Notes under the pieces: model-generated
Database searches by the model: none
Told to the model about the DNA's origin: nothing
What the model saw: the letters and a program-made list of their open reading frames with translations, nothing else
Shown: positions 29,837 through 36,380 of the stretch, piece after piece
How the letters are laid out: the number at the start of each line of letters is the position of its first letter
How positions within the stretch are numbered: the first letter of the stretch is position 1
Source: Parvularculaceae bacterium
GTDB taxonomy: Bacteria > Pseudomonadota > Alphaproteobacteria > Caulobacterales > Parvularculaceae
DNA length: 39,700 nucleotides
Direction: 5' to 3'
NCBI GenBank assembly: GCA_021776435.1
Contig: JAJFFW010000027.1
Span: forward strand, 1 to 39,700
Made by a program: the position numbers and the translations under genes

Positions 29837-30457
29837 TTATCTTAAAGGCGAGCGGCTCTGATTAAGGAAAGACGATGTTTCTTGCACCGGCGCGTTGGCG
29901 CCACTCAGGTCATCAACATCAATGTCTGTCGCTGACGTCGTTGGCTTCGGGCCTGGCGTAGGTGCGCCGCCAACCGGCCGGGCGCGTCTAAAATCTTTTG
30001 CCGCAGCTTCTGACAACGGGTCGTCAGAATGCCGACAATTGCCTTCAAAGTGAGCGCCGGTTTCCACTGAAAGTGAGCTATGGAGGATGTTTCCGTGGAT
30101 ATGTGCAGTCGAAGCAAGCGATACCGATTTGGCGCGAATGCCGCCGTCGACTTTACCCCTGACAGTCACCGTTTCGCAGATTACCTCGCCATTGACGATA
30201 GCTTTTTCGCCGATGATCAAGCAGGACGCCCTGATGTCGCCTTCCAGCGATCCATCAAACTGCACTTCACCGCTGGAGTTGATGTTGCCCTTCATGACAA
30301 CATCCGTGGAAATTAAAGACGGGACGCCTGCTGATTTCATGGGACTCGACCTTTTGGATGGAGTTTGCGACGCGTGAGCCGAAGTCAATTCTTTCGGCGG
30401 TTCGGAGTTGTGTGATTTCTTATCTGGGGTTTGTTTTTGTTTAGCTTTCGAAAACAT
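29837..30457 (-). CDS. Bactofilin
   Basis: 206 residues from the ATG at 30457, with AGGT six bases upstream; longer frames read into the M23 gene and are rejected. A basic, disordered N-terminus (1-45) precedes the bactofilin beta-helix (about 48-143) with periodic G-x-I/V turns (K-G-N-I, G-S-L-E-G-D-I, G-E-V, G-K-V-D-G-G-I, G-N-I), and a Pro-rich C-terminal tail. Bactofilins polymerise without nucleotide into membrane-bound filaments that position cell-wall enzymes, for example in stalks and buds. The start overlaps the end of the M23 gene by 17 bases, so the two are likely co-translated. Confidence 0.92.
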   Translation of the reverse strand: MFSKAKQKQTPDKKSHNSEPPKELTSAHASQTPSKRSSPMKSAGVPSLISTDVVMKGNINSSGEVQFDGSLEGDIRASCLIIGEKAIVNGEVICETVTVRGKVDGGIRAKSVSLASTAHIHGNILHSSLSVETGAHFEGNCRHSDDPLSEAAAKDFRRARPVGGAPTPGPKPTTSATDIDVDDLSGANAPVQETSSFLNQSRSPLR

Positions 30458-31757
30458 ATCTACCTGCCTCGATAAATTTACGGGGGTTGCTGGCGCGTCC
30501 TTTGAACAGAATTTCGTAGTGAACATGAGGTCCAGTTGAGCGACCACTCGAACCAAGCTCACCTACTTTTTCGTGAAGCTTCACTTTTTGCCCCTTTTTG
30601 ACCGATGTCTTTTTCATATGGGCGTATCGGGTTACAAAACCGTTGCCGTGATCAATTTCGACCGTGCGCCCAAAACCTGCTCGTTGCCCGGAAAATTTTA
30701 CAACACCTGAAGCGGTCGCTGAGATAGGCGATCCCCACGCTGCGGCGAAATCAATTCCAAGATGGTTTGATCGGCGACCGTTAATGGGGTCGCGTCGGAC
30801 TCCAAATCCACTGGTGAACCGACGACTGACTGTCAGCGGTGAGGACAACGGAATGTGTTCGACGAGTGTTTCCATCGCCGCTAATTCATCAAGCGCGGCG
30901 ATCGCACGATTAGCGCGCTGAAAAAACTTAGTGGAGTCGCCGTTTACATCATCGACTTCAATAAATGGTCCGCCCTGCGCCAAGACCATATTTGACACTT
31001 TAGCAGGTACAAATAAACTCTCTGTGCCGACACCAATGCTTTTGATGATCAGTCGTAATTCTTCTGCTTTAGCAGAGGCTTTCTCCTCAAGCGCGGCCAG
31101 CAACAACACCTGTTCTGCATAGAGCCCGGCTGCGGCGTCTTCCATATGGGTGATGGCATTCGCTGCAGGGCTGGAATCCGGCAGTTGAACACGTCGCGTA
31201 GCGGCTTCCAGCATTGCTTCCCGTTGTAAAAGTGACATTCGTGACTGGCGCGGGGTAGGTTCGCCTGGCGCGACGTCTATCATCATGCGATTGCCATTGA
31301 CTGGCTGTTGGCCGCTTGGCGACCCCGCTTGGGCTAGGCCGGTGGACAGCGTTTCGAGGCCTTGATCGATCGTCGCCTTGCGATCCACCATGTTCTTTAA
31401 CATATGGTGGCGGCCAGAAAGCTCTGCCATGGCCGAATCTGATTCCCGTTGAACGGTGTAGAGTAGCGAATTTACATCATCATAGGCCAGTTGAGCATCG
31501 TTGATGCGCTTTGAGAACGTTGTTTCCATAACGCGGAAATCGCGTTCCTTGGCGACGATAATTTGTTCTTTGAAAACAACGTTTACCGAGGCATAAGCAA
31601 TCCATAACAAAGCGCCAACCACGACTGTCGCCAAGGCAATTTGTGTCTTGGTCGACATCGAAATGAAATGAACGACGCCATCACTGCGATGATAAATCTG
31701 CCGCTCTTTAAAAAAGCGACTGATAATCCTTCTAATTTGGCCGGACTTGCGGCTCAT
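30441..31757 (-). CDS. M23 family peptidoglycan endopeptidase (LmdC-like, DUF5930)
   Basis: 438 residues. A basic, conserved N-terminal cytoplasmic part (F-F-K-E-R-Q-I-Y-H-R-S-D-G near 15-27), a membrane helix (about 37-58), long coiled regions (about 60-145 and 205-245) and a C-terminal LytM domain (about 315-430). Zinc ligands are His332 and Asp336 (N-H-L-G-I-D) and His413 (H-V-H); His380 and His411 complete the active site. It should cut cross-links in the periplasm. In other alphaproteobacteria a peptidase of this type is tied to bactofilin in shape control, and the 17-base overlap here supports the same pairing. Confidence 0.93.
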   Translation of the reverse strand: MSRKSGQIRRIISRFFKERQIYHRSDGVVHFISMSTKTQIALATVVVGALLWIAYASVNVVFKEQIIVAKERDFRVMETTFSKRINDAQLAYDDVNSLLYTVQRESDSAMAELSGRHHMLKNMVDRKATIDQGLETLSTGLAQAGSPSGQQPVNGNRMMIDVAPGEPTPRQSRMSLLQREAMLEAATRRVQLPDSSPAANAITHMEDAAAGLYAEQVLLLAALEEKASAKAEELRLIIKSIGVGTESLFVPAKVSNMVLAQGGPFIEVDDVNGDSTKFFQRANRAIAALDELAAMETLVEHIPLSSPLTVSRRFTSGFGVRRDPINGRRSNHLGIDFAAAWGSPISATASGVVKFSGQRAGFGRTVEIDHGNGFVTRYAHMKKTSVKKGQKVKLHEKVGELGSSGRSTGPHVHYEILFKGRASNPRKFIEAGRYVFES

Positions 31758-32066
31758 CCAACTACGCCCCTTTTACGCGCCACTCACGTGATACGCTAAC
31801 GCCCCTGAATATATAGCAGCGTATCTCTGAAGATTTCGCAACTGTTATGTGATGAAGTAACCCTGTTTTTCACAATTTGTTAATCGTTTAAGGGCGAAAA
31901 GCCCGCGCAAATTGTATTTGCGTTCACCGATGAGCTTCATGGGCCACTCGAGCGAAGGTGCTCTATATGGGTGATCTGTAGCTACAGCCAATTTTAGAAA
32001 CGCGTGCCAAAAATTTTATGAACCTCGTTCGAATATCCGGCGTACGAGTGGGCAAACGGAATAGAT

Positions 32067-32297
32067 TCAATGGCTTCTGGTCAATACATGGCTGATTTCT
32101 TCTAAATAAAGAGCGTTTAACACCGTGGCGCCTTCATTATCGCCTGTGTCCTTAAGGGACACATTCAGGTCATGCATGATGTCGAGTCCGCGCGCTTCGA
32201 ACAGCAACGAGGGTGCGATCAATAGTCACGCTGAGATATCTGTGGTTGTAGCCTTCGGGCTCTATGGATCGTAAGGAGCCAGCGATTCAAAACTGTC
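32067..32297 (-). pseudogene. Remnant of a DUF455 (ferritin-like) gene
   Basis: Read on the minus strand this stretch encodes, in one frame, E-S-L-A-P-Y-D-P-stop-S-P-K-A-T-T-T-D-I-S-A-stop-L-L-I-A-P-S-L-L-F-E-A-R-G-L-D, then D-T-G-D-N-E-G-A-T-V-L-N-A-L-Y-L-E-E-I-S-H-V and a stop. E-A-R-G-L-D followed by G-D...A-x-x-L...E-I-x-H-V is the hallmark of DUF455/COG2833 proteins. The two internal stops (TAG at 32262-32264, TGA at 32226-32228) are one-base changes from Trp and Arg codons. The N-terminal half and the C-terminus are missing. It lies between bcp and the M23 gene. A 7-bp hairpin (32145-32163) falls inside it. 31758-32066 holds no gene I can support. Confidence 0.65.
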
Positions 32298-32311
32298 GCT
32301 AGCTTGCTGGT

Positions 32312-32782
32312 TCAAAGCCCCTTCACCTCTGCAAGGACCTCATCAACGTGGCCTGAAACACGCACTTTGCGCCAGATTCGGCGAATGGCGCCCTTTTCGT
32401 CGATCAGAAAAGTGGTGCGTTCGATCCCCATATATTTACGGCCGTACATGCTTTTTTCGGTCCAGACACCGTATTTTTTTACCATCTCGCCGGTTTCGTC
32501 GGAGGCAAGCATGACTTTGAGGGCGTGTTTTTCCTTGAAATTCTTGTGCTTTGCGATGCTGTCTTTTGAAACCCCTATGATATGCGCGCCAGCTCGCTTG
32601 AACTTGGTGATGTTCTTCGTGAATTCGATCGCCTCTTTGGTGCAGCCGGCAGTGTCGTCTTTTGGGTAAAAATACAAAATGACCTTTTCACCCTTAAAAT
32701 CCTTGAGATTTATCGATCCTTCGCCGTCTGACGGCAATGAGAAGGATGGCGCCTTGCTTCCAATCTCCAGTGCTTTATCCAC
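32312..32782 (-). CDS. bcp: Peroxiredoxin, Bcp/PrxQ type
   Basis: 156 residues from a GTG at 32782, six bases after AGGAG; an upstream ATG at 32821 would add 13 residues not typical of the family. Thiol peroxidase reducing H2O2 and organic peroxides. P-K-D-D-T-A-G-C gives the peroxidatic Cys47 in the P-x-x-x-T-x-x-C motif. The resolving cysteine five residues on in E. coli Bcp is Ile52 here, and no other Cys occurs, so it should work as a 1-Cys enzyme. I-G-V-S-x-D and the late R-x-T-F-L-I-D segments are typical. Confidence 0.93.
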   Translation of the reverse strand: MDKALEIGSKAPSFSLPSDGEGSINLKDFKGEKVILYFYPKDDTAGCTKEAIEFTKNITKFKRAGAHIIGVSKDSIAKHKNFKEKHALKVMLASDETGEMVKKYGVWTEKSMYGRKYMGIERTTFLIDEKGAIRRIWRKVRVSGHVDEVLAEVKGL

Positions 32783-32936
32783 TAACTTCTCCTGATCATG
32801 GATGGGTCTTGCTGTGCGCATCCTATCCGGGTTTCACAAAAGTGAAAGAAGCCGGGCGGTTCGCGATTGCGCTTGAACGGCTTTTTAAGGGAAACTAGGA
32901 CAAACGTTCTCTGGCGATGATGGAGCGAAGGAGTCG

Positions 32937-35900
32937 GTGAGTTTCCGACAACAGGCGTATTGCGGTATGAAAAGGCGTTTGGCGAAAGCCTGCTTCATTT
33001 TCCTGGAGATTCTCGGCGCTGCAGTTGCAGCCAGCGCCGCTTTCGTGGTTTTCAGTTTCTGGCGTTTGGAGCAGGGCCCGGTCTCACTCAATATATTCGT
33101 TCCAAGCGCCGAATTCGCAATCAGTCGCAGTCTCGGTCCCGGCTACCAGAGTGAAATCGAGAATTTGGTGCTTTCTCGCGGGTCAGGGTCCGGGGAATAT
33201 GCGCTGGTGCTTTCAGGAATTGACGTTTCTGGGCCGGACGGCCAGCGGAAAGCGCTCGTCCCGCGTGTGAGTATTGCTTTTGCTCCGGGGGATTTTTTCA
33301 AAGGTATTACGGGCCCGCGCCAGATTATAGTTGAAGATCCTGAAATTCGTATCGTACGCCGCCTTGCGAGTGGCGAAGAAAAGGTAAAAAACAGAGCCGA
33401 TGATGGAGCGAGCCGCAATAAGCTTATCCGTACACTAACTGGTGGAAATATATTTCACGTTGCGTTTGAGCGAGCCGCTCTGTCGGGCGCTGCAATCACT
33501 TTTGTGGATGAGGTTTCAAAACGCACTTGGATTGCCCCAGACGCTAATGTTGAAATCCTGCGTATCAATGATGGGTATTCGGCTCGTGCGGAGAGCGTTT
33601 TTCAATGGTCGGGGCGTTCTGCGTTCGTTGACCTGAGTGCGCAATATACTGAAGAGAGTGGTGTTGTTTCGGTTACGTTAGATGGTGAAAACATCCCCTT
33701 CGGCGACCTGCTTGCTATCTTTTACGGCGAAAAAGCGCGTGTGATGACTGCCCCTATCACTGGTTCAGCATCATTTGCATTTTCAGACGCGGGCCAAGTG
33801 TTGTCTTCGCGGTTCGACGGCCGTGCTGAAGGTGGCGTGTTATCAATTGGTGAATTTTCTGGTCCCGTTGGTTATGTCGATGTTGCGGCCGAATTTGATC
33901 CATTGCGCAATCGGTTTGAAGTGGAACGCCTTGCCTACGATGTGGCTGGAAATATCGGTGATGTTTCCGGTTCTGTCATGCTGGGGTTTGAAGCCGGACT
34001 TTCATCGCCAACGCACGTGACTTTCGACCTCACTGCGAGGGATTTAATTGTAGATACGAAAGGTGTGCTACCGGCGCCATTGCCGATCGATATGGCTGCG
34101 ACGACAGGTGGCTATGACGTCTCGACAGGAAGGCTTACCCTCGGATCGTTTTCGGCAAAATTTTTGGATGTGGCGTTGACCGGGGTAATGGAATATTCCG
34201 CACCAGAGTCTAACAGCGAAGGACGCAGGGCTTCGCCGGGCGTGAAGGCGGATATTAGCCTAAACGGCGAGCTCGATCCTAAACGCTTACTTCGGATCTG
34301 GCCGCTCAGTTTGGCCATGGGGGCGCGCGATTGGATTGAATCGCGTCTCGAACGCGCTCGATTCTCGAACCTTGTTTTTGCGATGGACCTGGCGCCGGGC
34401 GCCGTGAGCGATGCTGGCGGTTTGCCAGACGAGTCGTTGATGCTCTCCTTCGATGTTTCTGATATCGTCGCGCATTATATTCAAGGCATGACACCTATCA
34501 CGCAAGCAGCAGGGCATGGCGTTTTGCGAGGAAACTCGTTCAAGTTAGATGTGCAAAATGCGCGAGCGGGGCCGGTCGTCCTCAGCGAGGGTGAAGTCGA
34601 ATTCCCGATTTTAATCCCAAAATGGCTGCCCACCTATATTCGTTTTCAAGCTGCTGGTGATGCCGGTGAAATGTTGACCATATTGAATGAAAAACCATTA
34701 TCTCTACTGGATAAGGTCAATTTCGACCCTGCTCAATTTTCTGGAGACGCACAGGCGCGTATCGAAATTATGCGTCCTAACAGGCGGAATGTATCAAAGG
34801 AAGAATATGAATACAAAGGCACGGCGACATTTGAAAACCTTTCTCTCAGTGAGTTTTATGCCGCAGCCGACCTGACCGAAGCGGCCGGTCAGGTAAATCT
34901 TGAAACGCGGAAAATGTCCGTAAAAGGCGATGCGAAACTCGGCGGCTCACCTATCGAATTTCTGTGGACGGAGAACTTTTATGATGAAGATGGGCCATCA
35001 AAATTCGAAGCGAAGGGTGAGGTTGATAGTTCAACAGGGGATGTATTTGGTGTGCCGACACGGCAGTTTTTGCGCGGCCCTGTACGATTCGAAGCGAAAG
35101 TGCTTGGCGCAATAAATGCTATAGAAGATTTGCAAATCAACGCAGATTTTCGTGACGCCGCCATTACCTTTGACTTGGTCGGATGGCGCAAACCTCAAGG
35201 ATTTCCCGCTGTCGGTTTCCTCAATCTTTCAATCGATGAAAAAGGTGTTGATATCAGCAATCTCAACCTTGTTGGTCATGGTGTTAACATCGACGGTGCG
35301 ATCGCCTTTGACTCCGAGGGCGCCATTCAGCGGGCTGACTTTAATCGTTTGGAGTTAGACGACAAGGCGGATTTATCGTTATCGGTGAATCGGAGCGGCG
35401 CAGATGCGCTTAATGTCGCTCTCACCGGAAAATATCTTGATGTATCCACAATTGTGGAAACTTTTACAGACAGTCGACAATCGCACACTGGCGAGAGGGA
35501 AGGCTTCGATTGGGGGGCTGGACTGATCCTAAATACGCGGATCGACCGTCTTGGTTTGCGCTCTGGTGTTGAACTCATGGATGCCAGTCTGGATTTCTGG
35601 CGTGACAAGGAGCGCCTGCAGAAAATTGAATTCTCGGCTTTGAACACCGAAAATCTGCCGATCTCAGTTTCATTGGATCAGATGGGGGATGGAGAAACGT
35701 CGACTCAAAATATTATAGCGCGTACGGATGATATCGGAGCGTTGATGGGCGGTATTTTCGGTATTGCGTCGATTAAGGGCGGCGAAGGCGTGATGGAGGT
35801 ATGGCTAAATGATGAAAAAACAAAGGGAGTGGCGGGCGTAATCGAGGCGCGGAATTTACGTGTAGTGAATGCGTCACTTCTTACACGTATCTTCGCAGCA

Positions 35901-36380
35901 GGATCGTTTAACGGGCTTGCTGACTTACTCAACGGTGACGGGATCGCTTTGGATACGGCTTATGCCGATTTTAATTTTGCTGACGGAGTATTCAGACTTT
36001 TCGATGCCCGGGCGACAGGGCCATCAGTCGGCATTACAGGTCAAGGAGAAATTGCAGCAGCGGAAGAGGGCGGGATAAAACTGAACGGCGCCGTTGCGCC
36101 GGCTTATAAAGTGAACTCCGTACTAGGGAAAATACCTGGATTGGGTGACCTTTTTATCAATCGAAAAGGTGAGGGGATCGTAGCTATTTCCTATCAGGTG
36201 AGCGGCACGGCTGATGCGCCGACCGTGTTCGTCAACCCGCTGTCGGCGCTGACGCCGGGTGTTCTGCGCCGCATTTTTGAACCCATACGTCAAAATGGTG
36301 GAGAGGCGAAAGAGCCATCGTCGGAAGGTCCACCGGCGGAAATCGAAGGCGCCGATCAAAGCGCGGCTGAAGACAAATAA
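32937..36380 (+). CDS. Large AsmA/DUF3971-like envelope protein
   Basis: 1147 residues from a GTG at 32937 with AAGGAG three bases upstream; an ATG at 32967 (1137 residues) is the alternative. One N-terminal membrane helix (about 18-41) is followed by about 1050 residues of beta-rich periplasmic sequence. It resembles YhdP-type proteins: DUF3971 in the first half (including L-D-L/G-E-L-D-P-K-R-L-L-R-I-W-P) and an AsmA-like C-terminal part near 960-1110, with G-x-x-G-L-A-D-L-L-N-G-x-G-I and V-N-S-V-L-G-K-I-P-G-L-G-D-L-F. Such proteins bridge the membranes and help move phospholipids outward. The C-terminal 25 residues are charged and disordered. It ends eight bases before the convergent tyrS. 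Confidence 0.8.
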   Translation: MSFRQQAYCGMKRRLAKACFIFLEILGAAVAASAAFVVFSFWRLEQGPVSLNIFVPSAEFAISRSLGPGYQSEIENLVLSRGSGSGEYALVLSGIDVSGPDGQRKALVPRVSIAFAPGDFFKGITGPRQIIVEDPEIRIVRRLASGEEKVKNRADDGASRNKLIRTLTGGNIFHVAFERAALSGAAITFVDEVSKRTWIAPDANVEILRINDGYSARAESVFQWSGRSAFVDLSAQYTEESGVVSVTLDGENIPFGDLLAIFYGEKARVMTAPITGSASFAFSDAGQVLSSRFDGRAEGGVLSIGEFSGPVGYVDVAAEFDPLRNRFEVERLAYDVAGNIGDVSGSVMLGFEAGLSSPTHVTFDLTARDLIVDTKGVLPAPLPIDMAATTGGYDVSTGRLTLGSFSAKFLDVALTGVMEYSAPESNSEGRRASPGVKADISLNGELDPKRLLRIWPLSLAMGARDWIESRLERARFSNLVFAMDLAPGAVSDAGGLPDESLMLSFDVSDIVAHYIQGMTPITQAAGHGVLRGNSFKLDVQNARAGPVVLSEGEVEFPILIPKWLPTYIRFQAAGDAGEMLTILNEKPLSLLDKVNFDPAQFSGDAQARIEIMRPNRRNVSKEEYEYKGTATFENLSLSEFYAAADLTEAAGQVNLETRKMSVKGDAKLGGSPIEFLWTENFYDEDGPSKFEAKGEVDSSTGDVFGVPTRQFLRGPVRFEAKVLGAINAIEDLQINADFRDAAITFDLVGWRKPQGFPAVGFLNLSIDEKGVDISNLNLVGHGVNIDGAIAFDSEGAIQRADFNRLELDDKADLSLSVNRSGADALNVALTGKYLDVSTIVETFTDSRQSHTGEREGFDWGAGLILNTRIDRLGLRSGVELMDASLDFWRDKERLQKIEFSALNTENLPISVSLDQMGDGETSTQNIIARTDDIGALMGGIFGIASIKGGEGVMEVWLNDEKTKGVAGVIEARNLRVVNASLLTRIFAAGSFNGLADLLNGDGIALDTAYADFNFADGVFRLFDARATGPSVGITGQGEIAAAEEGGIKLNGAVAPAYKVNSVLGKIPGLGDLFINRKGEGIVAISYQVSGTADAPTVFVNPLSALTPGVLRRIFEPIRQNGGEAKEPSSEGPPAEIEGADQSAAEDK

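Follow-up and report, generated by a model that had tools for sequence, protein, structure and literature searches.

Positions 32067-32297 (minus strand) of the window, the 39,700-nucleotide stretch of DNA from a Parvularculaceae bacterium analysed here, are very probably the remnant of a DUF455 gene that formerly stood between bcp and an M23 peptidase gene and is now decaying. Translation of this interval gives a DUF455-like frame with the EARGLD core, reading DSFESLAPYDP*SPKATTTDISA*LLIAPSLLFEARGLD...EEISHVLTRSH* in a single frame. A profile search of the whole genome, an assembly of 2.96 Mb in 142 contigs that is 98.58% complete, placed the best PF04305 match at 32079-32255 (-) with E 2.5e-8 and one TGA inside the match. 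The match covers 58 of 247 profile positions and barely passes the curated cut-off (34.2 bits, or 34.9 with neighbours in frame, against 34.3). Frameshift-aware alignment to a profile built from 27 relatives scored 52.9 at 32085-32252 over about 57 codons, compared with a maximum of 23.4 for 25 Markov-shuffled sequences and 13.8 for the opposite strand. The recognisable core (32085-32252) corresponds to helices 3-4 with the EARGLD and ExxH motifs, and carries an in-frame TGA and one extra in-frame codon.

Both flanking genes are intact. Upstream, bcp (32312-32821, minus strand) encodes a PrxQ-type thiol peroxidase with its stop codon kept (AhpC-TSA, E 2.9e-39; NCBIfam PRK09437 at 32312-32779, 146.7 bits with a cut-off of 140). 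Downstream, the gene at 30441-31757 (minus strand) encodes an M23 peptidase with DUF5930 (Peptidase_M23, E 3e-31; DUF5930, E 1.8e-14). The sequence-only reading had proposed a decaying DUF455 gene with an EARGLD core whose bcp and M23 neighbours remain in place, and these results agree with it on both points. The remnant shares the core sequence, the bcp-M23 slot and the helix 3-4 motifs with the DUF455/PF04305 family, which is ferritin-like and of unknown function. Unlike working members, it has lost its N-terminal half, contains in-frame stops and has an unrecognisable C-terminus, and so lacks the continuous frame of ~270 amino acids. It is a well-supported unitary pseudogene, ordinary in kind, whose ferritin-like family is uncharacterised: relatives have an intact orthologue in the same place, the copy here is disabled and the assembly contains no intact copy elsewhere.

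The host groups with Parvularculaceae, and in the genome set compared its genus is represented by this genome alone. The window M23 protein is closest, at 69% at best, to proteins from records named Marinicaulis and other Parvularculaceae. In a tree built by a quick method (LG+G4 without mixture, with a long-branch warning elsewhere in the tree), the window lies beside a clade of 16 rows, many of which carry the name Marinicaulis, and the grouping of all 17 has an SH-aLRT of 97. The first search found a strong DUF455 match (E 5e-79 or better) in all 24 of the other family-group genomes, the group being taken as Parvularculaceae from the record names of M23 relatives and from matching contig coordinates. 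In a larger sample, 46 of the 49 other family-group genomes listed by kinship had DUF455 and three had none, while 103 further genomes without a match lay outside this listing. Forty-five of the 46 matched at E 1.6e-57 or better, and the remaining match spans just 46 positions where a contig begins.

Checking the position of the gene in sister genomes, as had been suggested, showed an intact DUF455 gene between bcp and M23 in most relatives. The 27 DUF455 loci of the first search had bcp in 25 and M23 on the expected side in 24, with both present in 22; four of the five loci without both flanks are cut by contig ends, and the other, L026, has bcp and DUF455 with no M23 match. Among 80 M23 loci in named records, DUF455 adjoined M23 in 65, bcp adjoined M23 without DUF455 in 10, and five had neither, four of them cut by a contig end and one (L109) not. 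Five further loci, in family group f4 (L116, L119, L120, L123 and L125), have bcp with no DUF455 or M23 match nearby, and the slot is therefore not universal. In another family of the order, locus L133 (G169:C7:55887-56637) carries DUF455 between bcp and M23 in two pieces that overlap but differ in frame, representing either another breakage or a sequencing error.

The remnant was described in the sequence-only reading as lacking both ends, and this was correct for the 5' end. The distance from the bcp stop to EARGLD is 113 nt here compared with 521-545 nt in the 16 members of the nearest clade, and therefore about 408-432 nt are missing, which takes away the gene start and about half of the protein from its N-terminus (helices 1-2). 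The deletion junction lies directly past the bcp stop, at 32298-32311. The 3' end, however, is not shortened, as the 441 nt from EARGLD to the M23 start fall within the 439-474 nt of the 16 close relatives, although the sequence there is unrecognisable. The same reading counted two one-base nonsense changes. One of these, the TGA at 32226-32228, is the single stop in solidly homologous sequence and falls at the invariant R168 (L035 numbering). The other, the TAG at 32262-32264, lies in the 5' edge of the remnant (32253-32297), where homology to the YGDLPAHDGLWEAA region is marginal, with DNA similarity above all shuffles for only two of six relatives. The TGA that closes the frame at 32067-32069 lands on the invariant tryptophan W220 by ungapped extension and looks like a further nonsense position, a likely third.

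The former C-terminal coding stretch (31914-32084, 171 nt) has the expected length. While the core at 32085-32198 and the sequence preceding the M23 gene at 31758-31913 each scored above all of their own shuffles in every one of the 16 relatives, this tail did so in one of 16. Its mean score of -25.0 slightly exceeded -26.4, the highest of 40 averaged shuffles, but lay inside the null when each shuffle met all 16 relatives (mean -29.4, s.d. 3.3, maximum -20.9), and a trace of similarity to the DUF455 C-terminal code may remain. Comparison of the tail with the C-terminal code of relatives in both orientations gave nothing beyond shuffles. An in-place inversion of the tail was rejected, as was its derivation from elsewhere in the window or from the loci of six relatives, with no score above the shuffle maximum in either case. 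An inserted repeat was also rejected, with the query 31860-32100 giving 15 genome matches besides itself, all at E 0.62 or worse. Uniform decay of core and tail was simulated as random substitutions and one-base indels, with draws matched to the observed core score, and was rejected when none of 516 draws gave the observed tail score. Either the tail was thus replaced or suffered larger indels, or the core drifted less; our simplest guess is larger or repeated indels.

The substitution pattern of the core is consistent with neutral drift. Its DNA identity to relatives is 57%, compared with 70% among relatives, and its amino-acid identity is 0.447, compared with 0.725. The neutral expectation for amino-acid identity at matched nucleotide identity is 0.432 ± 0.033 (82 draws), which matches the observed value. 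Differences at codon positions 1, 2 and 3 were 0.42, 0.29 and 0.57 here and 0.23, 0.14 and 0.54 among relatives, with positions 1 and 2 differing about twice as often here. We saw no protein-level constraint on the core in this comparison, which uses one sequence and stand-in ancestors and has low power, so that mild constraint may persist. The neutral match needs about 0.22 substitutions per site, an upper guide to the time since loss as part of the divergence may predate it. With this level of core divergence and an unrecognisable tail, the suggestion that the loss is fresh finds no support. Any date is crude because the comparison includes one genome of the host genus.

Three other explanations of the locus were weighed against decay of a former gene. 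That an intact gene was misassembled or misread seems very improbable. The assembly is a draft, but the lesions look unlike the pattern of single-base error, since error would have to account for two or three stops and a tail beyond recognition as well as a net loss of more than 400 nt, all inside a 39.7-kb contig with intact neighbours. More improbable still is that the ~53 codons between the two TGAs, encoding helices 3-4 with the E and ExxH residues, outlasted the 5' deletion and the loss of their surroundings as a miniature di-iron protein still in use. If true, such a protein would rebuild a four-helix di-iron bundle by pairing with itself. The recognisable similarity does roughly coincide with the open frame from 32225 to 32067, the E and ExxH are retained, and the similarity of the adjacent tail falls far short of the uniform-decay prediction. 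Amino-acid identity of the core is nevertheless that of neutral drift, a value reached by about one-third of draws, and the first two codon positions have lost constraint. Homology also runs across the TGA at 32226-32228, the invariant R168, T184 and P185 are lost, and no good ribosome-binding site was seen by eye.

The third explanation, a chance frame unrelated to DUF455, has practically no likelihood. The match is short, at about 57 codons, and its Pfam score lies just above the cut-off, yet synteny and score together already refute chance, as the genome-wide E value and the profile score far above its null coincide with the place where relatives have the intact gene. We therefore retain the reading of a decayed DUF455 gene.

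A search for an intact copy elsewhere, the other check that had been suggested, found none in the assembly. The only other match to the DUF455 profile, G000:C82:10397-10837 (L002 1135-2241), is weak and lies in a protein of 368 amino acids for which AurF is the top Pfam match (E 2.8e-18). It was rejected as an intact DUF455 copy. This protein has in common with DUF455 the weak profile match and ferritin-like families among its matches, but differs in its assignment to AurF. It is also an unlikely replacement for the lost protein, because similar second matches (frames of 374-406 amino acids found with the DUF455 profile) coexist with DUF455 in 7 of the 24 relatives that keep it.

The intact relatives indicate what was lost. 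Residues E88, E127, H130, E177, E210 and H213 (L035 numbering) are invariant in 18 of 18 aligned intact relatives. The series E/ExxH/E/ExxH is the pattern of ferritin-like di-iron proteins, and on the basis of this motif and the invariance we assign the six residues as putative ligands. The window retains the last three only (E177, E210 and H213, in helices 3-4), and with half of the putative set gone a complete metal site would be impossible in one remnant chain. The predicted structure of L035 (mean pLDDT 90.4, pTM 0.90) has four long helices at 74-101, 113-140, 165-193 and 197-227. A fold search with this model returned ferritin-like proteins among the best 50 rows at Z 13.1-14.3, values that helical bundles easily reach and from which the fold is only inferred; these included aldehyde-deformylating oxygenases, bacterioferritins and a Dps-like protein. 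Foldseek with the same model gave no match at E 0.001 or better, and a sequence search of solved structures gave no clear DUF455 relative, its only two matches within an E limit of 1 having values of 0.29 and 0.64. An NCBIfam search gave no match at E 0.1. A di-iron four-helix-bundle oxidase or oxygenase with a ferritin-like fold is the most likely identity of the ancestral protein.

The text retrieved in a literature search on DUF455, COG2833 and PF04305 contained no function for bacterial DUF455. In that text, DUF455 is linked to known folds only via designed intermediate sequences (PMC4520260), COG2833 appears in a table as a match at E 0.92 (PMC12090721), and PMC4554924 concerns DUF4559, a different family from DUF455. 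The genomic neighbourhood was also considered as a clue to function. In 30 of the 54 strong DUF455 matches outside the window (loci L151-L180, flank of at most 1500 bases), bcp adjoined DUF455 in 8 of 10 loci from the same class and in 0 of 20 outside it; as this is a class-level arrangement, bcp adjacency was rejected as a functional clue. An apparently AsmA-like gene, judged by eye and comparable to window positions 32937-36380, lies beside bcp in 5 of these 30 loci.

Loss of DUF455 from this slot is not confined to the window. The tree contains 88 bcp-M23 loci, 59 with DUF455, 28 without and the single remnant of the window, although this proportion should not be read as a frequency, since 18 of the 28 empty loci belong to genomes picked for having no strong DUF455 match. 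With the remnant counted as absent, the tree requires a minimum of seven state changes, and the starred branches force 5-6. For the ten absences in named records, 10 of 10 whole genomes had no DUF455 match, while both gene-bearing controls were found. These data favour repeated loss of DUF455 from the slot in several clades. The counts alone are ambiguous, and losses are favoured over gains because the same bcp-DUF455 arrangement occurs in distant Alphaproteobacteria.

No remnant was detected in the 28 spacers without DUF455, each of which fell short of the highest score among its own 30 shuffles, although at 120-488 nt they have room for short traces only. The same scan gave 42.2 for the window compared with 23.8 in 40 shuffles. 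Like the window, the loci of Parvularcula oceani (L065), P. dongshanensis (L067) and L038 keep bcp and M23 side by side without a working DUF455; their spacers of 237, 189 and 224 nt hold no DUF455 trace, whereas the window spacer of 554 nt does. Of the 29 bcp-M23 loci on the tree that have no working DUF455, the window alone shows loss half way, and its modest comparative use is as one observed intermediate of a recurrent loss. An ancestor very probably carried DUF455 between bcp and the M23 peptidase gene, and a net loss of 408-432 nt directly past the bcp stop removed the start and helices 1-2 while sparing that stop and the M23 upstream region. The remaining sequence, with its in-frame stops, probably drifts without function, the loss being tolerated as it was in several other clades at the same slot. 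That the gene has repeatedly been lost while its neighbours stayed suggests that some backgrounds can dispense with DUF455, and loss and retention provide replicate pairs of relatives for asking what accompanies DUF455.

The spared region at 31758-31913 (minus strand) is strongly conserved as DNA among the 16 close relatives, with the blocks ATCACATAAC, GTTGCGNAAT and GCTGCTATAT apparent by eye in the alignment. From this conservation, it is probably a promoter or regulator site of the M23 gene. A consensus search of 31600-32950 gave no sigma-70-type promoters or intrinsic terminators, and no Rfam family reached its gathering score in 31500-32900. Past the M23 gene lies an open reading frame at 29837-30562, which resembles a bactofilin gene. 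Its longest frame overlaps the M23 end, and its true start is therefore probably further in.
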